In this document: one piece after another, positions 12,874-50,548 of the stretch
How positions within the stretch are numbered: position 1 is the stretch's first letter
Layout: every line of letters begins with the position of its first letter
IMG/VR virus record: IMGVR_UViG_3300048672_000029
Coordinates: 1-50,548 of that record
Strand: one strand, 5' to 3'
DNA length: 50,548 bases
From: a virus
Program-made: the position numbers and the translations under genes
The notes under the pieces: generated by a model
The model's database searches: none
The model's input: only the letters and a program-made list of their open reading frames with translations
Told to the model about the DNA's origin: nothing

Positions 12874-13437
12874 ATGCCTTTCAAAGCAAATGATTTTGTT
12901 GCTTCTTTCGTTGCAACACTGGAAACCCTGACACAATCGGAAAAGATTACAAAAGCAACCCTTCAAACCCTTAGCCGTGATGTGCTTTATGCATTGCACT
13001 GTGATGGTGACACAAAGGGGGATATTGGGTATATCAATCGCACCATTGCCGTGCTTACGCCAGTAAACAAGAAAGCATTCATTCTGTTCTGCAAGGAGTT
13101 CACCGGGTTCATTATGAACAATGAGGGGAATGCTTTCCTTAAGAAATCCAAGAAGCATTACGAAGAAGTGTCACTAAAGGCACTGGCATTCTTGGATGAC
13201 CCAATGAATAACCTTTGGTCATGGGCTGATCGCAACATTGAAATGGAAAAGAAAGAATTCTCTCTTGATGCTGTGACACACACTATCGAAGTGCTGCTTA
13301 AGAAAGCGGCAAAGAACAACATCAGTCAGGCTGATTTCCTGCGTGCTGTAATGAAGGGCGGTATTGATTCCGATTCCATCATTGCGATTATGGATGATCT
13401 GGGTTTTGAAGTGGCTGATGAAAAGGAAGGCGAATAA
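12874..13437 (+). CDS. Early protein of unknown function (first gene of the rightward arm)
   Basis: A 187-residue, largely helical protein with many charged residues and an acidic end (D-E-K-E-G-E). GGAG at 12864-12867 gives a good RBS 6 bases before the ATG. It is the first gene after the control region, so it is probably made immediately after infection. First early genes of lytic phages often encode host-takeover factors, but I recognise no motif here. Codon use is less AT-biased than in the genes after 14.6 kb. Confidence 0.75.
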   Translation: MPFKANDFVASFVATLETLTQSEKITKATLQTLSRDVLYALHCDGDTKGDIGYINRTIAVLTPVNKKAFILFCKEFTGFIMNNEGNAFLKKSKKHYEEVSLKALAFLDDPMNNLWSWADRNIEMEKKEFSLDAVTHTIEVLLKKAAKNNISQADFLRAVMKGGIDSDSIIAIMDDLGFEVADEKEGE

Positions 13438-13857: not shown

Positions 13858-13945
13858 GCGAGAGTGGCGAAACTAGGTATACGCAAGAGATTTAAAATCT
13901 CTCGATAGTAATATCATACGGGTTCGATTCCCGTCTCTCGCACCA
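13858..13945 (+). tRNA. tRNA-Leu (anticodon UAA)
   Basis: The acceptor stem GCGAGAG pairs with CTCTCGC, followed by an encoded ACCA end. The anticodon stem AGAGA/TCTCT holds the loop TTTAAAA, giving anticodon UAA. The long variable arm fits class II tRNA-Leu, and the T arm is GGGTTCGATTCCC. It reads UUA, a codon favoured by this AT-rich phage. Confidence 0.93.
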
Positions 13946-13949
13946 ATAT

Positions 13950-14024
13950 ACGCCATTAGCTTAATGGATAAAGCTATGATCTTCTACATCATTGATATAG
14001 GTTCGATTCCTGTATGGCGTACCA
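13950..14024 (+). tRNA. tRNA-Arg (anticodon UCU)
   Basis: The acceptor ACGCCAT pairs with ATGGCGT and the CCA end is encoded. The anticodon stem ATGAT/ATCAT holds the loop CTTCTAC, giving UCU, which reads AGA. The T arm has GGTTCGATTCC. AGA is common in this genome and usually rare in GC-richer hosts. Confidence 0.93.
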
Positions 14025-14028
14025 ATAA

Positions 14029-14104
14029 GCAATCTTAGCTCAGTGGTTAGAGCAGGGTACTCATAATGCCTTGGTCATTGGTTCAAATCCAATAGATTGC
14101 ACCA
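14029..14104 (+). tRNA. tRNA with anticodon CAU (elongator Met, or Ile2)
   Basis: The acceptor GCAATCT pairs with AGATTGC and the end ACCA is encoded. The loop CTCATAA gives CAU. Base pair G1-C72 is intact, which argues against an initiator tRNA. If the first anticodon base is modified to lysidine it would read AUA as Ile; otherwise it is elongator Met. Confidence 0.9.
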
Positions 14105-14442: not shown

Positions 14443-14567
14443 CCTTAAGTATTCTTAAGGTTCACTTCGTTCACTCTTAAGGTATATTAGCATTATTCTC
14501 ACTCGCTTCTTAAGGTTCGCTAATCGCTCACTCTTAAGATAATCTAATATATAATACTTAAGGTATT
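14443..14567. repeat. Cluster of CTTAAG palindromic repeats
   Basis: At least six CTTAAG palindromes occur in about 125 bases. Two pairs are spaced so that each pair encloses a TTCACT- or TTCGCT-type segment (14454-14482 and 14509-14538). The 13-mer TCTCACTCGCTTC here also occurs near 4314. The cluster sits just before the 375-codon gene that opens the amide-ligase operon and could regulate it or be a mobile remnant. Confidence 0.65.
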
Positions 14568-14632: not shown

Positions 14633-15760
14633 ATGATGCGTAAATTTGAAGATGGTGACTTGGTTAAGCTGGTTTCCACTCGTAAAGATAACAATCGTGC
14701 TCATTATATTCCAGCAATGGAGCATTTGTTAGGAAAAACATCAATTGTTGAATATGTAGAACATTGGGGTGGTCCTATTATTAGGATGAAATGCCCGGAA
14801 GATATTGATGATCGTGGCTATATCAATTTTGATGAGCTTTGCTTTAGGCGTATACGTAAAGCTATTAACGTCAAGAAAAAAGATGACGTAAAGGTAGAAG
14901 TTCCTAAGGTAGAGGAAGTAAAACCTATTGCTTTAAAAGAAGGAAACGATCCTACTGGATTACGTGCCTACTTTACCAAATCTATGGGAGATGCTGATCC
15001 AGCAACATGCTCATATGCAATTAAGCTTGCAAATGGAAAGATACGTGAGCAGAAAAGAGATGTATGCCATGCACGTCTTCCTTTACAAACTGGTGATTAT
15101 TTGGGGCATAAGCAAGAGAAAGACCCTATTGCTGTAGTGTTGCATTTAAAAGGACATTACAAGAATGCACAGCCAGACCTTAAAGAAACATACGTTAAGT
15201 ATGTAGATTACATGATTAATCGTAGCCCTTGGGCACCAATTCATTTGGTGAAAGATGCTCATGACGCAATTGCTAATTGCGCCTCTCTAGACGTATCACG
15301 TCCATTGTATGAATTGATGGGTGCTGCTGTATCTCTGCGTGAAGCTAGTGAATTTCCTAGCAATTTCCGTAGCTTTAAGAAAGCTTTAGAGCTTGGCTAT
15401 TCTGAGCATACAGCATATTTGATGACATGCTGCTTTATCACTAGAGAATCAGGTGATTCTTGCAGGACATACATCACCAACGGTCATAAGGTTATGCATA
15501 CTGACAATAAGGTGCCAGCTATCATCAATTTCTTTACGAAAGGTTATAAGCCAGCAAAAGAAGCTTACAACAAAGGTGGTATAGATAATGGTATTAACAA
15601 GTATATGATGACCATATTTGAAGGAAGTTCTTTCAAGAATGCCGTTGATGCTTTGGCTCCTTTAAATGATTGGGCTTTTGGTACAAATGGAGTGGTAGAT
15701 AACAAAGGCTTTATTTCTGTTGCGGATATGTTTGAGAAATTTTTTAAGAAAGCAAAATGA
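14633..15760 (+). CDS. Unknown protein opening the amide-ligase operon
   Basis: A 375-residue protein. The N-terminal 75 residues form a small domain (F-E-D-G-D-L-V-K-L-V-S, then Y-I-N-F-D-E-L-C-F-R-R-I-R) that resembles SH3-like folds. A Lys/Val/Glu-rich linker follows (about 80-103), then a larger helical domain with several Cys and His residues (C-H-A-R-L-P-L; L-M-T-C-C-F-I-T-R-E-S-G-D). I recognise no enzyme family. It overlaps the next gene by 4 bases, so its product probably works with the class I amidotransferase and ligases downstream. It could be a substrate, a scaffold or a new enzyme. Confidence 0.75.
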   Translation: MMRKFEDGDLVKLVSTRKDNNRAHYIPAMEHLLGKTSIVEYVEHWGGPIIRMKCPEDIDDRGYINFDELCFRRIRKAINVKKKDDVKVEVPKVEEVKPIALKEGNDPTGLRAYFTKSMGDADPATCSYAIKLANGKIREQKRDVCHARLPLQTGDYLGHKQEKDPIAVVLHLKGHYKNAQPDLKETYVKYVDYMINRSPWAPIHLVKDAHDAIANCASLDVSRPLYELMGAAVSLREASEFPSNFRSFKKALELGYSEHTAYLMTCCFITRESGDSCRTYITNGHKVMHTDNKVPAIINFFTKGYKPAKEAYNKGGIDNGINKYMMTIFEGSSFKNAVDALAPLNDWAFGTNGVVDNKGFISVADMFEKFFKKAK

Positions 15761-16368
15761 AGAAGGTTTATATCGTAAACGGAAGCAAACAGTATTCTGA
15801 TTTGTTCCGTAATGTTGGATGGTTTATTACAGATATGCTCCATGAGGCTGATTTAGTATGCTTCACTGGTGGAGAGGATGTAACCCCTTCCTTCTATGGT
15901 GATGCTCCTCATATGCATACACATAACAATGTCCATCGTGATCGAGATGAACAAATAATCTTTGAAGTGTGTACACATGACAAGGTGCCTATGGTGGGCG
16001 TCTGTAGAGGCGGACAATTTTTAAACGTAATGTCCGGAGGACGAATGTATCAACATGTCAGTGGACATGGTGGAGCACATTCGATTATAGACGCTAGGAC
16101 AGGCGAAACAGTGTTAGCCACATCTACCCATCACCAAATGATGATGCCCTCTCCTGAGGCCGTTCTAGTGGCTTCTAGCACCCTTGGTGGTACTAGAGAA
16201 TGGTACGATCATGAAATCTTTCGTAGAGATGTATCTAAAGAAGATATTGAGGTGGTTTTCTATCCAGAAACAAAGGCTCTCTGCTTTCAGCCTCATCCAG
16301 AATTCAATGGCTATGCATCATTGAAGGAATATTTCCATTCACTTATTAAGGAGTTTTTTCATGTTTAA
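15757..16368 (+). CDS. Class I glutamine amidotransferase-like hydrolase
   Basis: A 203-residue protein of the class I glutamine amidotransferase / peptidase C26 superfamily. It has the nucleophile elbow G-V-C-R-G-G-Q with catalytic C83, and the His-Glu pair in Q-P-H-P-E-F (H180, E182). The early F-T-G-G-E-D-V-T-P-S-F-Y-G motif is typical of the gamma-glutamyl hydrolase/PuuD branch. It should hydrolyse a gamma-glutamyl or glutamine amide bond, either releasing ammonia for a partner ligase or trimming a gamma-glutamyl peptide. It overlaps the preceding gene by 4 bases and the following small gene by 8. Confidence 0.85.
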   Translation: MKKVYIVNGSKQYSDLFRNVGWFITDMLHEADLVCFTGGEDVTPSFYGDAPHMHTHNNVHRDRDEQIIFEVCTHDKVPMVGVCRGGQFLNVMSGGRMYQHVSGHGGAHSIIDARTGETVLATSTHHQMMMPSPEAVLVASSTLGGTREWYDHEIFRRDVSKEDIEVVFYPETKALCFQPHPEFNGYASLKEYFHSLIKEFFHV

Positions 16369-16516
16369 TATAAATTACATCTTCGGTTATTACGCTTATA
16401 TGCGTAAGAATCTTGTGTCTAAGCGCCCTTGGGCACATTTCCGTAAGAAGGGGCCTGGTCGTAAGCATCAGCAAGGACAGCCATTGACTAAGGGAGAGCG
16501 TAATGGAAAAGCATGA
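16361..16516 (+). CDS. 51-residue basic peptide within the amide-ligase operon
   Basis: AAGGAG lies about 6 bases before the ATG at 16361, which overlaps the end of the amidotransferase gene by 8 bases. The frame is 51 codons. The N-terminal third is aromatic (Y, F), and the rest is very basic with a K-K-G-P-G-R-K-H-Q-Q-G-Q stretch. It has no membrane helix. Its position between the amidotransferase and the ATP-grasp ligase makes it a candidate substrate or carrier peptide, but this is speculation. Confidence 0.65.
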   Translation: MFNINYIFGYYAYMRKNLVSKRPWAHFRKKGPGRKHQQGQPLTKGERNGKA

Positions 16517-16670
16517 ACAATTATTTGTTCCTAAAGCAGATTACAATAGAGATATTAAATGGAAAAAAGATTCTAAACAAAAATGTTTAGCTCAATCCAT
16601 TGGATATTTCTATATGGACGAAGAAGAAAGAAGTTGGTATTGGTTATTTAAATATGAAAGTGGTGAGTAA
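16503..16670 (+). CDS. 55-residue acidic-ended peptide within the amide-ligase operon
   Basis: The ATG at 16503 has an RBS-like AGGGAG before it and overlaps the previous small gene by 14 bases. The stop (TAA at 16668-16670) overlaps the ATP-grasp start as TAATG, indicating translational coupling. The protein is charged and aromatic, ending Y-E-S-G-E. It has one Cys. No family is recognised. A role as a ligase partner or substrate is possible from position only. Confidence 0.65.
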   Translation: MEKHEQLFVPKADYNRDIKWKKDSKQKCLAQSIGYFYMDEEERSWYWLFKYESGE

Positions 16671-17371
16671 TGCTTAAAGTAGCTATCATCCATTCTGTAG
16701 CAGGGATTTCTAGCAAAATTCTGGCTACAGCATTGAAGAATAATGGTGTAAAGGCTGATGTTTTCCGTTATAGTGACATACTTAGCAGGGATTTTAGACA
16801 ATATGATTATGTTTTTTCGTATGGTTGCTCGGGGCGTACTGACCATAACAATCGGCTCAATTCTGCTAATGCAGTGGCTACTTGCGTGTCTAAACCAGCT
16901 ACTTTTAACAAGCTTATACAAGCTAAGGTTTCGACAGTAGAATATGTCACTGAGAAGCCTATTCCTAAGCATTGGGATTGGGTGGTGATACGAGATAAGA
17001 CTGATGGACGTAAAGCAGAAGGGCTTCATTACCATGAAAATAATGCAAATGTTCCAGATGGTGTTCTCTACTCCGAATACTTTGAACACAAATATGAATA
17101 TCGAATTATGGTGTTCAAGAATGAAGTTGTTGGACGATATTTCAAAGCTGAGGACAATGGCGATTGGTACTTCAATAAGCAGCCCCCTAGAGCTTTTGAA
17201 GATATGGATGAGCATTGCATTCGTGCAGCTAAAGCTATTGGCATTGACTACGTGGGCTTTGATGTAGTAGCTAATAACAAGAAGGATTTCCGTATTCTTG
17301 AGGCTAACTCAGCCCCTCGTATTACGGATGAAGCAGAGAATGCTATTGTTGAATATTTCATTAACCTTTAA
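16670..17371 (+). CDS. ATP-grasp ligase (RimK-like)
   Basis: A 233-residue ATP-grasp fold enzyme. The C-terminal half carries the family pattern: Y-E-Y-R-I-M-V-F for the central strand with its Arg, F-K-A-E for the following strand, and G-F-D-V-V then F-R-I-L-E-A-N-S-A-P, the Mg-binding E-x-N motif. The N-terminal 75 residues form the short preATP-grasp domain. Enzymes of this type activate a carboxylate as acyl phosphate and join it to an amine. Together with two amidoligase genes and two amidotransferases nearby, it is probably one of three amide-bond formers in a single pathway. Confidence 0.87.
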   Translation: MLKVAIIHSVAGISSKILATALKNNGVKADVFRYSDILSRDFRQYDYVFSYGCSGRTDHNNRLNSANAVATCVSKPATFNKLIQAKVSTVEYVTEKPIPKHWDWVVIRDKTDGRKAEGLHYHENNANVPDGVLYSEYFEHKYEYRIMVFKNEVVGRYFKAEDNGDWYFNKQPPRAFEDMDEHCIRAAKAIGIDYVGFDVVANNKKDFRILEANSAPRITDEAENAIVEYFINL

Positions 17372-17391
17372 AGCAACTGATTAACTCAGGC

Positions 17392-18762
17392 TTGGATTAC
17401 GGAGCTTTTATTATTTGTGGTATTGTTGGCGTTGCGGGTGATCTAACCCAAAAGGAAGACAAGATTTTTCGTACTATGCTTATCCTTGACACTGTACGAG
17501 GGGAAGACAGTACAGGATTGGCTGCTGTTCCTAAGTTTGGTGATTCAGTGGTGGTTAAGACTGTTGGTCCTGCTTTTGATCTATTTGCTAGTAAGAAATA
17601 CGATGCAACTATGAACAAAATGAATAGAGCAGTGATTGGACACAATCGCTATGCTACTCAGGGCGTAGTGAATAAAGCTAACGCTCATCCTTTTGAATTC
17701 CAAACTCTTATTGGTGTACATAATGGTACATTGAAGAATAAACACAAGCTTCTTGATCCTCATAAATTTCAGGTAGATAGTGAAAATCTATATCATCACA
17801 TTGAGAACAATGGTTTACGTGATGCTATTGACATTGTTGATGGGGCTTATGCTCTAGTATGGTGGAATAAAGATGAGGAAACTCTTAACTTCCTACGTAA
17901 TAAAGAACGTCCATTGTTCTATGCCTATTCTAAAGATACTAAAGTTATCCTTTGGGCATCTGAGAAATGGATGATTGACATTGCTTGCTTCAAGCATGAT
18001 CTAGTGATTGACGAGATCAAGAGTGTTCCAGTAGACTATCATTATTCTTTCCATATTGACAACAAAGGCTTCATACATAAGCCTAAAGAAGTTGAGATGA
18101 AACAGAAAGAGATTAATCGTCCTGATATTTCCTACTACACTGGTGGTTATTTTGGTAATCAATATCAAGGACATAGACAACAGCAGCAAGGATTTGCTCC
18201 TCAACTTCCTGCTCCGACAACAAGTAATGTAACAACTCTTCCAGTAGTTGACGCTAAAAAAAACTTGGTTTCGGACAAAGATATCGAGACTTATTCCAAC
18301 ACAAAAGGAGTGATTCTTAATGTTGTAGAGAGCGATATCAATACGCATGGAGCTAAGTATGTAACTCTACGTGACCCTTTACACCCTACATTTCCTATCT
18401 CAATGTACATCAATAGAGATACAGGAATTCTCAAACTAATTGGCAAATCAATTAAGGCCAATGTTGGGAAATGGTGTATGACGTATAAAGCGGGAGGTTT
18501 CTTTCGTGTCAGTGAAAATGAATACGAAGAAATCCCTGATGAATCTCCAGAGCTATACATCTACGATGATGGCAAAGGTCACATGCTTAACAAGAAGGAG
18601 TGGGAAACGAAGTTCTCTAATTGTGAATGGTGCTTCGATCATCTGTTTGCAGAAGATCATGGTAATAGGATTAATGATGCTGGTCAGTGTTTCTGTGCTA
18701 CTTGCGTAGCTACGTATCCAGAGATTGAAGAGCATGCTGGTAAATTGAAACGTGTTTATTAA
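17392..18762 (+). CDS. Class II (Ntn-type) glutamine amidotransferase with C-terminal zinc motif
   Basis: The amidotransferase domain (about the first 210 residues) has all the expected motifs: C-G-I-V-G-V for the N-terminal nucleophile Cys, G-H-N-R-Y-A-T-Q-G, N-A-H-P-F, V-H-N-G-T, D-S-E-N and D-G-A-Y-A-L-V. It would release ammonia from glutamine. A Gln/Pro-rich linker follows, then a second domain, and near the end C-E-W-C with C-F-C-A-T-C, a likely zinc-binding site. The only usual start codon is TTG at 17392, which puts 8 residues before the Cys. A GGAG at 17401-17404 lies 8 bases before an ATT that directly precedes the Cys codon. The active protein therefore arises by propeptide removal or by an AUU start at 17413. 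Confidence 0.88.
   Translation: MDYGAFIICGIVGVAGDLTQKEDKIFRTMLILDTVRGEDSTGLAAVPKFGDSVVVKTVGPAFDLFASKKYDATMNKMNRAVIGHNRYATQGVVNKANAHPFEFQTLIGVHNGTLKNKHKLLDPHKFQVDSENLYHHIENNGLRDAIDIVDGAYALVWWNKDEETLNFLRNKERPLFYAYSKDTKVILWASEKWMIDIACFKHDLVIDEIKSVPVDYHYSFHIDNKGFIHKPKEVEMKQKEINRPDISYYTGGYFGNQYQGHRQQQQGFAPQLPAPTTSNVTTLPVVDAKKNLVSDKDIETYSNTKGVILNVVESDINTHGAKYVTLRDPLHPTFPISMYINRDTGILKLIGKSIKANVGKWCMTYKAGGFFRVSENEYEEIPDESPELYIYDDGKGHMLNKKEWETKFSNCEWCFDHLFAEDHGNRINDAGQCFCATCVATYPEIEEHAGKLKRVY
17401..17415 (+). promoter_or_regulatory. RBS with probable AUU start for the class II amidotransferase
   Basis: GGAG (17401-17404) is followed after 8 bases by ATT (17413-17415) and then the TGT codon of the catalytic Cys. 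Starting here gives fMet-Cys-Gly, the form in which class II amidotransferases are normally encoded. The TTG at 17392 has only a weak AGG before it. Confidence 0.5.
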
Positions 18763-18780
18763 CTTTAGGAGATATATGAA

Positions 18781-19575
18781 ATGACGAAGATTCTAATTGG
18801 TTGCGACCCAGAAGTGTTTATTAAACAGAAAGGCATCTTTAAGAGTGCTTACAATCTAATTAAGGGAGATAAGAAAAATCCTCAAAAGATTCGTAGTGGA
18901 GCAGTGCAAGTAGATGGTATGGCATTAGAGTTTAATATTGATCCAGCCGCTACTGAAGATGAATTTGTCTTTAATGTACAAGACGTGTTCAATCAAATGA
19001 AGGCTATGGTGCCTAAGTATGAGGTGGTAGTGTCTCCTGTTGCTCACTTTGATGCAGCATATATGAAGAAGCAACCTAAGGAAGCCTTAGAGCTTGGTTG
19101 TGATCCTGACTATAACGCTTGGACAGGTGAGGCTAATGCTCGCCCTGATGGTGATCGTCCTATGCGTACTGCGTCAGGTCATATCCATATTGGATGGACT
19201 GCTAATCGTTCTAAAGACGATATGGGCCATGTAAATGATTGTCACATCATTGCTAAGCAAATGGATTATTATCTGGGCCTCACCAGCCTGTTTTATGACA
19301 AGGAAGTAGAACGTCGGGAGATGTATGGGAAAGCTGGCGCTGTTCGTTATAAGCCTTATGGTGTTGAGTATCGTACTCTCTCTAATGCTTGGCTTAAGTC
19401 TGAAACTCTTATGCGCTTTGTATACCGTAATGCGGTAAAGGCCGTTACTAACGTTATGGATGGTAATATCCTTGTGGATAAGTATGGAGATATTCAAGAC
19501 ATTATCAATACGTCTAATCTAAAGAAGGCTTCGGCTATCATTAAGTCTGAGAATCTAGAGGTTTGTTATGGATGA
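18781..19575 (+). CDS. COOH-NH2 ligase, phiEco32-type (type 2)
   Basis: A 264-residue protein matching the glutamine-synthetase-like COOH-NH2 ligase family described from phiEco32-like phages. It has G-C-D-P-E-V-F-I at the start, V-D-G-M-A-L-E-F-N near residue 45, S-G-H-I-H-I-G-W near 135, and G-V-E-Y-R-T-L-S-N near 198. The Glu and His residues of these motifs form the metal and ATP site. The family is predicted to make amide bonds between a carboxylate and an amine using ATP. AGGAG lies 9 bases before the ATG. It overlaps the next gene by 8 bases. Confidence 0.87.
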   Translation: MTKILIGCDPEVFIKQKGIFKSAYNLIKGDKKNPQKIRSGAVQVDGMALEFNIDPAATEDEFVFNVQDVFNQMKAMVPKYEVVVSPVAHFDAAYMKKQPKEALELGCDPDYNAWTGEANARPDGDRPMRTASGHIHIGWTANRSKDDMGHVNDCHIIAKQMDYYLGLTSLFYDKEVERREMYGKAGAVRYKPYGVEYRTLSNAWLKSETLMRFVYRNAVKAVTNVMDGNILVDKYGDIQDIINTSNLKKASAIIKSENLEVCYG

Positions 19576-20170
19576 AGAAGAAGTATTGTCTAATGACGAT
19601 ATTGTCCAACAGTATTACAAGAACATAGTAATTTATAATACTAAGTTGGTATTTGTTAGTCATTGTAAAGATGGGATCGTTACACTTAATCCAGTAGGAG
19701 TGGCTAAGAATTTCAATGTAAAGTTTGAGAGGAAATTGTTTAAGCCTTGTCTCAATCGTATTGGAATGATTAACGTCTTAGGCTCTGTTATCTATGGCTC
19801 ACGTAATCCTGTACGTAAGATGCAGATAGGACACAATCGTAATAACATTTCTTTGCATTATATCAAAGGGCTGGAATACAAAGAAGGAGCAATGGCTACT
19901 AAGGATTACCTATACAATGTTAATTGTGTAGAAATTGGTAATTCTTTAGAAAATAATTATCCTACTTTTGAGAAAGCTTTAGAGATAATTGATAAGAAAT
20001 CTGGTATTAATGCTGTTGCTTTTGATAAGCAATTCTGCCTAGATAAGCTAGGCAACATCTACTATAAACTTGATTGCGTTGGTAAGGTAAAAGATAAACG
20101 TATTGAGTTTAAGTCTGGTAAAGAACATCTTGAACTTCTTTTAGAGAATAGCTATGAGCAGTATATTTGA
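19568..20170 (+). CDS. Unknown protein between the two amide ligases
   Basis: A 200-residue protein overlapping both ligase genes (8 bases before, 17 after), so it is clearly part of the operon. It has an acidic N-terminus, several aromatic residues and a G-H-N-R-N-N-I-S-L-H-Y motif near the middle; no catalytic signature is recognised. The C-terminal part (Y-Y-K-L-D-C-V-G-K-V-K-D-K-R) has beta-hairpin character. It may be the protein substrate, a specificity subunit, or a divergent member of a ligase family. Confidence 0.7.
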   Translation: MDEEEVLSNDDIVQQYYKNIVIYNTKLVFVSHCKDGIVTLNPVGVAKNFNVKFERKLFKPCLNRIGMINVLGSVIYGSRNPVRKMQIGHNRNNISLHYIKGLEYKEGAMATKDYLYNVNCVEIGNSLENNYPTFEKALEIIDKKSGINAVAFDKQFCLDKLGNIYYKLDCVGKVKDKRIEFKSGKEHLELLLENSYEQYI

Positions 20171-21356
20171 AATCCTGGAAATGGAAAATGGTAAAAAGCA
20201 AGCTGGCTTCTTCGGTATTGAGATTGAAGTGGAAGGTAAGCACTTAGGTATTAATCCTGCTAGATTCTGGAGAGCAGAGGCTGATGGAAGTTTACGTAAC
20301 GGTATTGAATACGTTCTTAAGAAACCTTTGTTTATTAAGGAAGTGTCTACAGCATTGCAATATCTAAATAATTATCTAAAAGATCAAGGAAGCCGTCCTG
20401 TATTCTCCTTCCGTACTTCTGTGCATGTGCATCTCAATGTGCAATCTCTTACAGAGGATCAGCTCCTTAATCTAATCTATACGTATTCTCTCCTTGAGAA
20501 TGTGTTTATGGAATATTGTGGAGATAGTCGTAAAGGCAATCGCTTTTGTCTACGAGCACAAGATGCTGACGGATATGTGGATAATGTGGACAAGTTATTC
20601 TCTCAAGGTGTACGAGAAATCTTTCGTATTCCTCAGAATCAGATTAGGTATTCCTCTCTTAATCTCGAAGCTTTGCTTAAGTATGGCAGTATTGAATTCC
20701 GGGGATTGGCTGGTACATTAGATGAGAAACGTATTCTTGTATGGTGCCAAGCTATTGACAAGCTCAGAGAATATGCTGTTAAGCAAGAAAATCCTATTGC
20801 TATTATGAATCACTTTAGAGAGAGTCATAGTATTTCTTTTGCTAAGGAAATTCTTGGGGAACTTTTCCAGGAATTTGAATTCAAAGGGATGGATAAGGAG
20901 CTTGTTCGTAATTTCTCATTAGCTATTGATTTCCCTTCTTCGTATAGAGATCGGAAAGAAAAGAAGGAAGTAGCTAAAGCTAAGAAGGAAATTGATCCTA
21001 TTCGTCAACAGAATGTTTTAAACGAAGTTCTTGTAGACTTGGCTAATAGGGAAGCAGCACGTATAAGGAGAGATGCTGCTGGACGTTTTGCTCCGTGGCA
21101 TCAGGCTGTCCCTAATGAACATGAATTACGAGCAGCAGGTGTGGAAGTTGCCGGACATGTACATGATGCTGTAAGATTTAATCCTTTTGCAATTCCTGAA
21201 GCTGTTATTAGAGATGAAGTTGCTGTGGCAGATCATAATAATAGATTGAGAGGAGTTATGGATGAACAAATACGTGCTCATCGTGTAGGTGTTAGGCGTG
21301 TTCCTGTCCCTCCTAATAGAATGTTTGATGAGCCTCAAGAGGAACCATTGGAATAA
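20154..21356 (+). CDS. Amidoligase (Amidoligase_2 type) with Arg-rich C-terminal tail
   Basis: A 400-residue protein. Residues about 20-230 form a glutamine-synthetase-like amidoligase domain: F-G-I-E-I-E-V-E-G, A-D-G-S-L-R followed by G-I-E-Y-V, S-V-H-V-H-L-N, and S-I-E-F-R-G-L-A-G-T. These E-x-E, H-x-H and E-F-R motifs match the Amidoligase_2 family. The last 130 residues are rich in Arg, Ala, Glu and Pro and look largely unstructured. It is the second, different amidoligase in the operon. Such tails may dock to a partner or serve as a self-modified substrate. Confidence 0.87.
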   Translation: MSSIFEILEMENGKKQAGFFGIEIEVEGKHLGINPARFWRAEADGSLRNGIEYVLKKPLFIKEVSTALQYLNNYLKDQGSRPVFSFRTSVHVHLNVQSLTEDQLLNLIYTYSLLENVFMEYCGDSRKGNRFCLRAQDADGYVDNVDKLFSQGVREIFRIPQNQIRYSSLNLEALLKYGSIEFRGLAGTLDEKRILVWCQAIDKLREYAVKQENPIAIMNHFRESHSISFAKEILGELFQEFEFKGMDKELVRNFSLAIDFPSSYRDRKEKKEVAKAKKEIDPIRQQNVLNEVLVDLANREAARIRRDAAGRFAPWHQAVPNEHELRAAGVEVAGHVHDAVRFNPFAIPEAVIRDEVAVADHNNRLRGVMDEQIRAHRVGVRRVPVPPNRMFDEPQEEPLE

Positions 21357-33545: not shown

Positions 33546-34099
33546 GAGTATTAGTAGCTTGTGAGTACAGCGGAGTAGTAAGTCAAGCTTTTAGACTTAA
33601 AGGCCATATGGCTATTTCTTGTGATTTTCTAGAAAGTGAAATCACAGGGAATCAGTTTCATTATCAAGGAGATGTACGAAACATCTTAGATAAGAAGTGG
33701 GACTTGCTAATAGCTCACCCTCCCTGTACTCATCTAGCTGTAAGTGGGGCTAGGTGGTTTAAAGAAAAGAAAGAAGAACAAGTAGAAGCTCTAGACTTTG
33801 TACGTATGTTACTTGCTGCTCCTATTGATAAAATAGCTTTGGAAAATCCAATATCAATAATTAGCAGCAGGATACGTAAACCAGACCAGATTATCCAGCC
33901 TTGGATGTTTGGACATGGAGAGACCAAAGCAACATGCTTGTGGCTTAAGAACCTTCCTAAGCTTGTTCCTACGAACGTAGTAGAAGGAAGAGAAGCTAAA
34001 GTGCATAAGATGGGTCCTAGCCCAGATCGTTGGAAGAATCGTAGTAGAACATATCAAGGCATAGCAAACGCTATGGCAGAACAATGGGGGAATATTTGA
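33542..34099 (+). CDS. Short C5-cytosine methyltransferase-like protein
   Basis: A 185-residue protein with TTG start. It has a SAM-binding-like N-terminus (V-L-V-A-C-E-Y-S-G), the catalytic P-P-C loop in I-A-H-P-P-C-T-H-L, and an A-L-E-N-P motif like motif VI of DNA cytosine methyltransferases. It is much shorter than a full enzyme (300 or more residues) and lacks an obvious target-recognition domain. This compact family is common in phages; whether it methylates DNA is uncertain. It overlaps the reductase gene by 16 bases. Confidence 0.75.
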   Translation: MRVLVACEYSGVVSQAFRLKGHMAISCDFLESEITGNQFHYQGDVRNILDKKWDLLIAHPPCTHLAVSGARWFKEKKEEQVEALDFVRMLLAAPIDKIALENPISIISSRIRKPDQIIQPWMFGHGETKATCLWLKNLPKLVPTNVVEGREAKVHKMGPSPDRWKNRSRTYQGIANAMAEQWGNI

Positions 34100-35262
34100 A
34101 TAAATCAGAATTTAAGACATCTTTTGGTGAAGACATCTTTAGATATAAATATGCTCAAGGTCCTGGAGACACCTGGGCTAAACTAGCAGAACGTATCGTA
34201 GAAGATGTATGTGGAAGTCGCTGGGGAACACTTCCTGTTTTAATGTCTACAGAAGATCGTAAGCAGCTAGTACAATACATTAAGGAATTTAAATTTATTC
34301 CTGGTGGACGATATTTGTATTACGCTGGTCGGCCTAATAAAGCATATAATAATTGCTATTTGTTACGAGCTGAAGAAGACACTAGAGAAGAATGGAGCGC
34401 TGTTACATGGAGAGCAATGTCTTGCTTGATGACTGGTGGAGGGATTGGAATTGATTATTCACGATTACGACCAGCAGGAAAAGCTCTTAGCAGAACTGGA
34501 GGAACTTCCTCGGGGCCACTCCCACTTATGTACGCTATTAATGAAATTGGGCGTAATGTTATGCAAGGAGGAAGCAGACGATCTGCTATATACGCATCTC
34601 TTAATTGGCAACACGAAGATATTATTAGTTTTCTTAAGAGCAAAAACTGGAGTGATTTAATCAAGGAGCAGAAGCTTCTAGATTTCAACTTCCCTGCTCC
34701 ATTGGATATGACTAATATCAGCGTCAATTACGATGATGCTTCTTTAATTAATGGATTAGAAAACAATGACATATTTAAGAGAAATGTTAGACAAGCAATG
34801 GAAACGGGCGAACCCGGCTTCTCCTTTAATTTTGGAGCAAAGCAGAATGAAACGTTACGGAATGCTTGTACTGAAGTTACCTCTGAGGATGATTCAGATG
34901 TTTGTAATCTTGGCTCTGCTAATCTCGGTAATATTCGAAGTATTGATGAGTTTCGTTCAGTGGTGCAACTTGGCAGTAAGTTCCTTGTTTGTGGCACTCT
35001 TCGGGCTGATCTCCCCTACGAGAAAGTTTACAAGGTTCGAGAAAAGAATCGACGCTTGGGTCTCGGACTTATGGGTATACATGAATGGCTATTACAGAGA
35101 CAGCTCCCTTACGAAGTTAATCCGGAACTTATTGAATGGTTAAAGGTATACAAGAATGACTCAGAAAAAGCTGCAAATGAGCACTGTGATCGGTTCTATA
35201 TTAGTCGCCCGGTTGCATATAGAGCAATAGCTCCAACTGGTAGTATTGGTATTCTTGCAGGT
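34084..35262 (+). CDS. nrdJ: Class II (B12-dependent) ribonucleotide reductase, exon 1
   Basis: The first 393 codons of a split gene. Motifs: F-I-P-G-G-R-Y-L-Y-Y-A-G, N-N-C-Y-L-L with an active-site Cys, G-G-G-I-G-I-D-Y-S-R-L-R, R-N-A-C-T-E with the radical Cys and Glu, C-N-L-G-S-A-N-L, and A-I-A-P-T-G-S-I-G-I-L-A-G at the end. The normal continuation of the last motif is T-T-x-G-I-E-P-L-F, found 864 bases downstream at 36127. Without splicing, only 8 foreign codons follow before a stop at 35287-35289. The spliced protein is 551 residues and makes deoxyribonucleotides aerobically or anaerobically with adenosylcobalamin. Confidence 0.92.
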
Positions 35263-36126
35263 TATGTAGTAGCCTGCTCTGCAGAGTAATCTGCTTAAAA
35301 TAAATTGGGTGAATTCAGGGAAAACCTAAAGATATTGTCGAATTCGATTAGTAATCCAGATAGATAGGAATACAACCTAACTAAGGATATTATGAATAAT
35401 TCGTTCGGAGATTATAAGTTGTTTGACAATGAAACAAAAGTCAACAACGATAATAGAAAACTCCTACATGTAATTTGCAAATGTGGAACTATTGATTTTA
35501 AAGAAGAAAGGAACCTTCTATCTGGAAGAACTACTTCTTGTAAATCTTGCTCTGCTAAGAAAACTGCTATAAACCATCCACCACCAATAATGTATAAAGG
35601 TTTCGGAGACTTATCTGGAACTCATTATCTTACGATACGTAATAACGCTATACGTAGGAATATATTGTTTAACCTATCTCCAGAATATCTCTGGAGGCTG
35701 TACGAGAGACAAAAAGGTAAATGTGCTCTTACAGGTGTTGATCTAGTTTTAAATAGATCATTAAAGAATAACAATGTAAATTGGGACGTAATAACTGCTT
35801 CTGTAGATCGTATCAAATCAGATTGTGGTTATGAAGATGGGAATGTATGGTGGGTTCATAAAGAAGTAAACCGTTTAAAGAATAATTATTCTATGGATGA
35901 ACTTCTTTATTGGTGTAAGTTACTAGTAAATAGACATGGCAATCCTGAGCCAAGCGTACTGAATAGCATAAAGTAAGTACGAAGGTGCAACGACTAACAG
36001 GTGAGAAGCTAACTCAATAATCCTGACACGAGCGCCCAACCCCTATTAATTAGGGTGAAGATATAGTCTGAGCTGCATAGAAATATGCAGAAGTATAAGA
36101 TAAAGAGCTTATACGATAACAAACTG
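35263..36126 (+). other. Group I intron in the ribonucleotide reductase gene
   Basis: The intron can be placed to the base. The exon end GCAGGT (35257-35262) pairs with the internal guide GCCTGC (35272-35277), with the required U-G pair at the 5' splice site (P1). The intron ends in G (36126), and the joined exons read L-A-G-T-T-T-G-I-E-P, the expected reductase sequence. GACTA (35992-35996) pairs with TAGTC (36064-36068) as P7, within the familiar GAAGATATAGTC 3' core. The ORF for an HNH protein lies between the P4-P6-like segment near 35310-35345 and P7, probably looped out of P6. The intron splits the gene at the highly conserved A-P-T-G-S/G-I-E-P region. Confidence 0.92.
35392..35976 (+). 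CDS. Intron-encoded HNH-type endonuclease
   Basis: A 194-residue protein inside the group I intron. The N-terminal third has two C-x-x-C-like zinc pairs (C-K-C then C-K-S-C). The catalytic part has R-Q-K-G-K-C-A-L-T-G, then S-V-D-R-I-K-S-D-C-G-Y-E-D-G-N-V, where Asp replaces His of the usual D-H-I, then W-V-H-K-E-V-N-R-L-K. It is related to phage HNH enzymes with this C-A-L-T-G layout. It would cut intronless reductase genes to spread the intron. Translation must start within the unspliced RNA; AAGGA lies 6-7 bases before the ATG. Confidence 0.85.
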   Translation: MNNSFGDYKLFDNETKVNNDNRKLLHVICKCGTIDFKEERNLLSGRTTSCKSCSAKKTAINHPPPIMYKGFGDLSGTHYLTIRNNAIRRNILFNLSPEYLWRLYERQKGKCALTGVDLVLNRSLKNNNVNWDVITASVDRIKSDCGYEDGNVWWVHKEVNRLKNNYSMDELLYWCKLLVNRHGNPEPSVLNSIK

Positions 36127-48270: not shown

Positions 48271-50548
48271 CAGAATTACCTTTTAGAGAGATGCTCCAAC
48301 CTATGATACGACAATCTTTAAAAGCTTCAGTCTCTAGATATAACGCTAATGTTTTTCCCCTACCTCTAACTTTGTTCTTGCTAGAGATAATAGAAAAGCC
48401 ATTATCATAATCATCATTAACATCTTCAATATACAGAGCACGTCTGTATCTGTATACTTGAACTAATGGAGACCATTTCTTAGAAGCTATGCTATTAGCA
48501 AAATCCCATTGCATACGCATTAGGCAGCTAGACTGTTTATTAGGAATAAGCTCTTCTGTAACGCCTTGTTCAGTACGCCTAAAGAACATATTCAAGTAAG
48601 GCACTTGCTTAGCTACTGGAGTGTCTCCAGCATTCTGTTGACCAGTAAGCAAATAGGCTTTAGCATCAACACCTACACCATCTACACCTTTGAAGTCTCT
48701 AAACTCAAAATTATTGTATAAACCAAAAGTGATGTAAGATTGTCCACCATTAGCAAGTAGCAGTACATATCTCATAGACTGTACACCAGAATCTCTTACA
48801 GTTTCGTTGGTAACAACTTGGAATGCATCAGCATATACAGGATCAGTACCTACGTATACAGGGGAGTCTGATCGACCTCGGTTATAAGGTTTACCCGGAA
48901 ATAGTCCTACAACTTGAATAGTATTTATAGGAAGATTTCCTATATTATTCTGGTAAAAAGCCTGAATAATGGTATCTAGTACAAGCTCTTTAGTTACGGA
49001 AGTTAAACTATCGAATCTAACACCTGATTTGTAAATCCATCTAATCTTTTTAGCAATAGGGTCGTAAGAGCCTACAGCCTCTTCTTTAGAAGATTGAGGA
49101 ATAGTTTCGTACAGCTTCTGTATAGTTGTCTGAGTTAGATTGTTGACTACTAGATCACCAGTTTGATTCTTGGCAACTACATAAATACCATCTAAAGCCC
49201 AGAAGAATATTCTATCTGATTCCAATACGATAGATTTAGGAGCAATACCACCGAAGATAGAAAGCTGCTTAATCTTATAATTCGTAGCTGTAAATCCATA
49301 ATCAGCTCCTCCAGATACAGACCATACACCATTAGAAGCAATAACAATCAAAGAACTATCTAATACAGCCATTCCTAGAATATTCTTAGCTCCAGCTATT
49401 CGTACAAAACCACCATCTGTATCTACAATATCTGGGTTGTCTCTCGAAGAAGGATCACCTTCTTGGTAGCATTTTATCAAATCTCCTTTATTCTTAACAA
49501 GTTGTGAGAAGAATAAGAAATTGGAGAAATCAGGACTACGTGAGTCTTTATCGAACACTTCCCCATTAAAACCAGAATACCAAATACGTCCTGCAAAATT
49601 GCAAATAGTCTTAGCTCCACCTTCTGTTTTATCAGCAGGAAGAGTGATGGAAGAGAGAAGTCCAGTAGTGAACTTGCTTTTATTATTTAGGAATACAGTT
49701 GTACGCGATGCTCCTCTATCTAAAGCATCTATAATGTAATAACCTTTAGCCGAATACTCTCTACTACCTAAAGTTTCTGTATAGAGGTTAGTATACATTC
49801 TTTCAAATGTTACACCAGCAGTGACTGGCTGAAATTGTAATCCAGGCCAAACAGATTCAGAAGAGCTAGGAACTAATGCTAAATCTGTCATGTACTTTTG
49901 TACAGGGTCTACTAGCGTACCACCAGAATCTTTCCTAGGAATTCCCCAAGATTGATTTTGAAGATTATAATAATGTCTATCTGGAAGTCCTAAATTAGCT
50001 CTATATGTTGGATCAGTTTCGTATAAAGGTTGATCTTGAACCTGTACACCCCATAAATCTCTTACTAGAATCCGTTTATATTCTACAGAAAAAGTTCCAA
50101 GCTGATATGTTATAATAGCAATGTCAGGAACACCTCCTGCAACTATTAAACTTCGTTCTAATGAGGAAAAAGAAAATATGGTGTTAGAAGGGAAACTAGA
50201 AAGAGTTAACGATCCTAAATACCCTGAACCAGATATTGAATCTGCTAAAGCGTCATAGAATTTTAATTCTTTTTCTGATTGAATAACTAAAATATCTTTA
50301 TCTGTAGTACCGTTAGCACTAACCCAAATATAGCTAGAAATCTTAGCAGTGTTAATCAGAGTTATGTCAAACGTATTTAAGGATGTATTAGCATCCTCTT
50401 CATAATCCAGACCAAGCCTGCGATCACGGGTGCCATCCCTATTAAGTTCAAAATTCTCTTCGTCTATCGAAGCATTAGCTGGATAGTTTAAAGGGCTGGC
50501 TTCAGTAATTAACCCTTTAATAAAGTTATTTACTTCCGCCCGAGTCGC
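48263..50548 (-). CDS. Tail tubular protein B (gp12-like), main part; 5' end lies at 1-139
   Basis: The frame is open from the right end of the window to the stop at 48263 and is joined to the start at 139 through the circular junction, giving about 765 residues. An internal ATG at 49891 is not the real start, because the frame continues upstream without a stop. The protein is beta-rich with many Asn, Gly, Asp and aromatic residues, as in T7 gp12, the tail nozzle. Motifs such as F-A-G-R-I-W-Y-S-G and P-G-K-P-Y-N-R-G-R-S-D-S-P-V-Y appear in this family as I recall it. Bases 50422-50548 duplicate the left end. Confidence 0.8.
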   Translation of the reverse strand, partial: ATRAEVNNFIKGLITEASPLNYPANASIDEENFELNRDGTRDRRLGLDYEEDANTSLNTFDITLINTAKISSYIWVSANGTTDKDILVIQSEKELKFYDALADSISGSGYLGSLTLSSFPSNTIFSFSSLERSLIVAGGVPDIAIITYQLGTFSVEYKRILVRDLWGVQVQDQPLYETDPTYRANLGLPDRHYYNLQNQSWGIPRKDSGGTLVDPVQKYMTDLALVPSSSESVWPGLQFQPVTAGVTFERMYTNLYTETLGSREYSAKGYYIIDALDRGASRTTVFLNNKSKFTTGLLSSITLPADKTEGGAKTICNFAGRIWYSGFNGEVFDKDSRSPDFSNFLFFSQLVKNKGDLIKCYQEGDPSSRDNPDIVDTDGGFVRIAGAKNILGMAVLDSSLIVIASNGVWSVSGGADYGFTATNYKIKQLSIFGGIAPKSIVLESDRIFFWALDGIYVVAKNQTGDLVVNNLTQTTIQKLYETIPQSSKEEAVGSYDPIAKKIRWIYKSGVRFDSLTSVTKELVLDTIIQAFYQNNIGNLPINTIQVVGLFPGKPYNRGRSDSPVYVGTDPVYADAFQVVTNETVRDSGVQSMRYVLLLANGGQSYITFGLYNNFEFRDFKGVDGVGVDAKAYLLTGQQNAGDTPVAKQVPYLNMFFRRTEQGVTEELIPNKQSSCLMRMQWDFANSIASKKWSPLVQVYRYRRALYIEDVNDDYDNGFSIISSKNKVRGRGKTLALYLETEAFKDCRIIGWSISLKGNSDV
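50422..50548. repeat. Right copy of 127-bp terminal direct repeat
   Basis: Identical to bases 1-127. When the ends are merged the genome is 50,421 bp and the tail tubular protein B gene becomes whole. Confidence 0.95.

Follow-up and report, generated by a model that had tools for sequence, protein, structure and literature searches.

The genome of a tailed phage (IMG/VR virus record IMGVR_UViG_3300048672_000029; the whole stretch of 50,548 nucleotides is called the window here) carries at positions 14633 to 21356 an operon for amide-bond chemistry, in which five enzyme families are accompanied by four further proteins of 375, 51, 55 and 200 amino acids (aa). Open reading frames (ORFs), Pfam and PHROGs agree with a preliminary description of the DNA on these families and their positions. 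A terminal repeat of about 128 bases, of which at least the first 100 recur at 50421 to the end, marks the record as a whole phage genome; absences within it are therefore meaningful, and the 6.7 kb of the operon indeed take up about 13% of the genome. Genes for head, connector, terminase, tail, primase/helicase, polymerase and ribonucleotide reductase identify a tailed phage, which the cassette relates to PA11, CW02 and CVT22 of the Zobellviridae. The operon contains the following genes.

14633..15760, plus strand: U375, a protein without assigned function (ORF; relatives in 86 of 150 loci; AlphaFold model)
15757..16368, plus strand: C26 gamma-glutamyl-hydrolase-like protein with a class I amidotransferase fold (Pfam PF07722, 7e-20; C83, H180 and E182 invariant)
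16361..16516, plus strand: small basic ORF of 51 aa (translation; relatives in 3-4 loci)
16503..16670, plus strand: small ORF of 55 aa (seen directly in the sequence; one-base overlap with the ATP-grasp start)
16670..17371, plus strand: RimK-like ATP-grasp ligase of the type B clade (Pfam RimK, 2.7e-6)
17413..18762, plus strand: class II (Ntn) glutamine amidotransferase with a probable ATT start (Pfam GATase_6, 3.8e-18; GGAG 8 nucleotides 5' of the ATT; alignment)
18781..19575, plus strand: phiEco32-type COOH-NH2 ligase (Pfam PF14395, 8.4e-9; phrog_3815, 1.7e-90)
19568..20170, plus strand: U200, a core cassette protein without assigned function (conserved position; AlphaFold model)
20154..21356, plus strand: Amidoligase_2 protein with a C-terminal extension (Pfam PF12224, 8.3e-11; phrog_7469, 3.5e-66)

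Each enzyme family exceeds its curated Pfam gathering cut-off: Peptidase_C26 scores 72.2 bits (cut-off 20.5), RimK 27.6 (21), GATase_6 66.2 (27), COOH-NH2_lig 35.5 (25) and Amidoligase_2 42.7 (22), and PHROGs concur with E-values from 3.5e-23 to 1.7e-90. As first described, the genes form one tightly packed operon in which neighbours overlap or almost abut; the overlaps measure 4 bases between the U375 and C26 genes, 1 between the second small ORF and the ATP-grasp gene, 8 between the COOH-NH2 ligase and U200 genes and 17 between those for U200 and Amidoligase_2. The COOH-NH2 ligase is 48-50% identical to the PA11, CW02 and CVT22 proteins, while the C-terminal extension of Amidoligase_2 is weakly or not conserved and gives marginal matches only.

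A COOH-NH2 ligase and an Amidoligase_2 protein in one operon, together with an ATP-grasp ligase, a class II amidotransferase and a gamma-glutamyl-cleaving enzyme, place the window among the carriers of a cassette that is already known. A seven-gene 'peptidoglycan modification' cassette has been listed for RIO-1-like phages, phiEco32, 7-11, PA11, tf, MR299-2, LUZ24, PaP3 and CW02 (PMC5498523, citing Hardies 2013), with a hypothesised role in superinfection exclusion through a change of the cell wall (PMC5498523 and PMC10580990, the latter citing Iyer 2009). The preliminary description was right to point to the comparative-genomic prediction of Iyer, Aravind and colleagues, and the literature searched gave no biochemical proof of cassette function, as it had also said. 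The window is thus a further carrier of an uncharacterised set.

How firmly this set holds together was surveyed in 150 non-redundant loci drawn from three viral scans and named phages, by means of iterated family profiles, each started from no more than seven sequences. Class II amidotransferase occurs in 148 loci, Amidoligase_2 in 146, ATP-grasp in 143, U200 in 139, C26 in 114, U375 in 86 and cyclotransferase in 54. Of these loci, 95 have 4.5 kb or more upstream and 6 kb or more downstream; the class II amidotransferase and ATP-grasp genes are found in all 95, Amidoligase_2 in 92 and U200 in 90. The gene-neighbourhood comparison proposed earlier thus finds the enzymes and U200 together in several orders: the amidotransferase may come first or after the amidoligase, and there is a layout without U200. 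That the set is kept together while its order changes speaks for a single pathway, and conservation of the cassette as a predicted multi-enzyme amide-bond pathway is strongly supported. The layout without U200, with C26, ligase and ATP-grasp close together, was seen in L146, L147, L212, L117, L137, L160, L194 and L214, on contigs of up to about 94 kb.

Among 50,697 phage records, 315 carry the COOH-NH2 ligase, 324 the amidoligase and 337 the class II amidotransferase, with nearly identical host breakdowns (121/119/121 for Pseudomonas, 93/92/93 for Escherichia and 22/22/22 for Vibrio). The cassette is accordingly found in several hundred phage records, of the phiEco32, LUZ24/PaP3, PA11 and CW02 groups. 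Each of the 12 matches in bacterial genomes lies on a contig from a metagenome-assembled genome; since most of these contigs share the gene orders above and resemble phage DNA, they offer no chromosomal context that would aid the assignment of a function.

The preliminary description had labelled the second gene a class I amidotransferase/C26 hydrolase. Its product appears better read as a C26 gamma-glutamyl-hydrolase-like protein, since it scores 72 bits against the C26 profile and 25 against GATase. The proposed triad of C83, H180 and E182 is invariant across the C26 alignment, and the relatives in the Protein Data Bank (PDB) include Lin1909 and PuuD. Within the flank-filtered loci, C26 alone is present in 59, cyclotransferase alone in 16, both in 20 and neither in none, where about 10 'neither' loci would be expected under independence (Fisher 1.3e-8, a guide only, with kinship among loci uncorrected). 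The window, with no cyclotransferase anywhere in it, resembles the 59. Cultured phages, counted as totals by organism name and not matched record by record, have as many cyclotransferases as ligases in Escherichia (93), Aeromonas (11), Proteus (8), Salmonella (7) and Cronobacter (6) records, and for Pseudomonas phages 105 cyclotransferases and 16 C26 proteins add up to the ligase count of 121. Strict mutual exclusion was rejected because of the 20 loci with both; only the rule of 'never neither' survives. Both C26 hydrolases and cyclotransferases free a gamma-glutamyl group that is bound in an amide, which makes a gamma-glutamyl amide the simplest substrate type that they would have in common. 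This suggests that gamma-glutamyl cleavage would be obligatory in the pathway.

PaP3 and phiEco32 carry the cassette with a gamma-glutamyl cyclotransferase. The phiEco32/RIO-1 version shares with the window the ligases, the class II amidotransferase, a glutamyl-cleaving enzyme and the location before primase/helicase genes, whereas the window has C26 instead of the cyclotransferase, an ATP-grasp enzyme of another clade located 5' of the amidotransferase, an additional U375 gene and an amidotransferase-first order. The cyclotransferase named in print for that cassette is not universal among the loci. Closer in layout are the Zobellviridae PA11, CW02, CVT22 and Klyazma, in which C26, class II amidotransferase, COOH-NH2 ligase, U200 and Amidoligase_2 follow in the same order; these phages have the usual ATP-grasp enzyme 3' of Amidoligase_2, unlike the window, whose whole genome lacks it. 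The window ATP-grasp belongs to a distinct clade of 18 (support 0.999), termed type B, mostly located between C26 and the amidotransferase. Some 10 loci have both types, and type B stands alone in the window, L017, L022, L038 and L049. Residues K75, R108, E143, R145, K159, D198, E211 and N213 are kept in type B, and the window protein, besides matching the RimK profile, retains the metal- and ATP-binding D198, E211 and N213. With its active-site residues in place, type B is likely to be a functional replacement of the usual enzyme.

Class II amidotransferases require a catalytic Cys directly after the initiator Met. In the window gene, the TTG at 17392 has no ribosome-binding site, while the Cys codon is preceded by ATT at 17413-17415 with GGAG 8 nucleotides upstream. 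Translation most probably begins at this ATT and not at the TTG, which would make the Cys residue 2. The C-terminal part of the protein has a conserved CxxC...CxxC pattern. In the 83 loci compared, the Cys follows ATG in 51, ATT in 17, TTG in 8, ATC in 5, GTG in 1 and an unclear codon in one; L234, the closest relative of the window, has ATG. Shine-Dalgarno matches of the ATT/ATC starts are on par with those of the ATG starts, and 16 of the 22 ATT/ATC loci have no canonical start available, compared with only 3 of 143 COOH-NH2 ligase genes lacking one near the N-terminus (Fisher 1.3e-5, the two counts following slightly different rules). Propeptide autoprocessing as an alternative to the ATT start is impossible in those 16 loci, where no ATG, GTG or TTG lies between the in-frame stop and the Cys.

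The amidotransferase genes of phiEco32 and SU10 are annotated from ATT. For the Kuravirus SU10, mass spectrometry detected six peptides of the ATP-grasp, nine of the amidotransferase, two of the cyclotransferase and one of a 23.3-kDa protein in a sample concentrated with polyethylene glycol (PEG) and not gradient-purified (PMC4281155); the peptides thus show expression, that of the amidotransferase gene included, and not location in the virion. The amidotransferase is listed there at 63.8 kDa (PMC4281155), which fits a start at the internal Met115 and hence a protein with its N-terminal catalytic Cys cut off, while 76.2 kDa is computed from the ATT. Gene callers will mis-annotate a gene with such a start and drop the catalytic Cys. 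The 23.3-kDa protein is possibly the U200 of SU10 (computed 23.2 kDa), although the paper's number 86 is the amidoligase in GenBank.

U200 is an overlooked core member of the cassette, newly recognised here. In all of the first 87 loci it lies 3' of the COOH-NH2 ligase, and 5' of the amidoligase wherever the latter is on the contig; L058 alone among them has an ATP-grasp gene between ligase and U200. It is not universal, being absent from five of the 95 flank-filtered loci, which have a different layout (L117, L146, L147, L212 and L214). The window sequence of U200 had no tblastn match in the 50,697 phages because of divergence to about 20% identity; neither tblastn with single sequences of U200 and U375 nor pattern scans for the two found any match, and relatives of both surfaced only through position and profiles. 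The AlphaFold model of U200 (pLDDT 93.7, pTM 0.88) has no PDB match by Foldseek at E<=0.001, with SH3-like fragments only at higher E-values, and a CW02 protein is among its matches in a viral structure library. U375 usually lies immediately 5' of C26 and conserves C145, R236, E240 and H285. Its model (pLDDT 82.9), also without a PDB match at E<=0.001, has an N-terminal SH3-like barrel resembling PetP and an unmatched C-terminal part. Homology to the genes 5' of the ligase in PaP3 or phiEco32 was not accepted, at HHalign probabilities of 0.3-29.5%.

Directly 5' of the operon, at 13858-14104, lie three tRNA genes (Leu-TAA, Arg-TCT and one with a CAT anticodon). Between these and the operon, six CTTAAG palindromes fall within 119 bases at 14444-14562, out of 23 in the whole window, in a region that also holds longer repeats (TCGTTCACTCTTAAGGTA). 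A conserved regulatory site was considered and rejected, as L016 has three copies and other loci have no cluster 5' of U375. A 187-aa protein at 12874-13437 has relatives in about 30 related loci and a sub-threshold Pfam match only (COMM_HN). Further away, a Group I intron match (Rfam RF00028, 51.4 bits, cut-off 50) at 35809-36090 follows the ribonucleotide reductase ORF at 34084-35289.

In the putrescine pathway (PuuA/PuuD) and in butirosin biosynthesis (BtrJ/BtrG), a C26 hydrolase or a cyclotransferase is the counterpart of ATP-dependent gamma-glutamylation. The cassette shares this pairing of ligation and cleavage, and its C26 resembles PuuD; the phages differ by their class II amidotransferase and by their number of ligases, three, and no counterpart of the PuuB/PuuC oxidation step or of an acyl carrier protein was recognised in them. 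Built on families with intact active-site motifs and on their conserved association, the reading to which we lean, by a modest degree, is that the operon encodes a pathway which builds amides in several steps and passes through a gamma-glutamyl intermediate, cleaved later on; that the product takes more than one step to make is a reasonable inference. The COOH-NH2 ligase, Amidoligase_2 and the RimK-like ATP-grasp would join carboxyl groups to amines in sequential ATP-dependent reactions, the class II amidotransferase would hydrolyse glutamine to provide ammonia or a glutamyl group, and U200 may hold or present the substrate or the complex. At least one intermediate would contain a gamma-glutamyl amide, removed by the C26 hydrolase, or by the cyclotransferase in relatives, much as in PuuA/PuuD and BtrJ/BtrG. 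Most likely, the pathway would serve to alter some host molecule early in infection, the cell wall being the published favourite.

Several points weigh against this proposal. The loci with both C26 and cyclotransferase imply that the two are not simple substitutes, and the gamma-glutamyl argument leans on membership of families that also catalyse other chemistry. Sequence searches of the PDB gave no relative for either the COOH-NH2 ligase or Amidoligase_2, so that gamma- rather than alpha-carboxyl chemistry is putative. Moreover, the COOH-NH2 ligase served to select the survey loci, which are not mutually independent.

What the pathway would act upon divides three tentative alternatives. The published one, doubtful in our estimation, is peptidoglycan modification, with unusual links in side chains or precursors that would keep out superinfecting phages or tune lysis (Iyer 2009 and Hardies 2013, as cited in PMC5498523 and PMC10580990). 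Its hosts and enzymes partly suit it, cultured ligase carriers being mostly phages of Gram-negative hosts and the ATP-grasp profile extending to D-Ala-D-Ala ligases; the nearest ATP-grasp match is, however, RimK and not Ddl, the set has no cell-wall-specific gene and the literature searched gave no experiment. The same ATP-grasp enzyme points elsewhere, as among solved structures it is closest to RimK S6-glutamate ligases and kindred alpha-L-glutamate ligases, and matches the graspetide synthetase CdnC, among others, more weakly. Protein modification is conceivable on these grounds, the ATP-grasp and amidoligases attaching glutamyl residues, or others, to a protein of the host or virion, and C26 or the cyclotransferase trimming these residues. 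It too seems rather unlikely, for among the cassette proteins none was recognised as a conserved substrate, although U200 or the product of a small ORF could be one. A similarly low probability attaches to a free small peptide or gamma-glutamyl metabolite, such as a glutathione-like compound or polyamine conjugate, serving as signal, defence inhibitor or DNA-packaging counter-ion. A GCS/GS-like ligase, an ATP-grasp and a cyclotransferase together recall the make-and-break logic of glutathione and gamma-glutamyl-amine metabolism, and C26 resembles PuuD, but no transporter, carrier domain or precursor peptide was recognised. Auxiliary nitrogen metabolism is very improbable: it was proposed for phage ZRK32, which has amidoligase, amidotransferase, glutathione synthase and cyclotransferase genes and whose addition raised host growth on ammonium, but excerpts of that study describe no single-gene tests (PMC10945688), growth promotion poorly fits a phage with full virion, replication and packaging genes, and ammonium assimilation needs no three separate ligases.

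The contributions to the amide-building pathway made here are U200 as a core member, the 'never neither' rule for C26 and cyclotransferase, and the recurrent AUU/AUC start. A bolder combination of the three, which we regard as improbable, would make U200 a fold unseen in solved structures that acts as carrier or platform of a viral protect-build-release pathway yielding an undescribed class of gamma-glutamyl or amide products, with the AUU/AUC start keeping amidotransferase translation low. The function of the cassette has been a prediction since 2009; the U200 model, the predicted gamma-glutamyl intermediate and expression in a culturable Escherichia coli phage relative make it testable. Retention of these enzymes by several hundred sequenced phages, among them phages that infect Pseudomonas and E. 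coli, means that their product must be of great value to the phages, and if that product blocks superinfection or defence, it would represent a new kind of viral chemistry.

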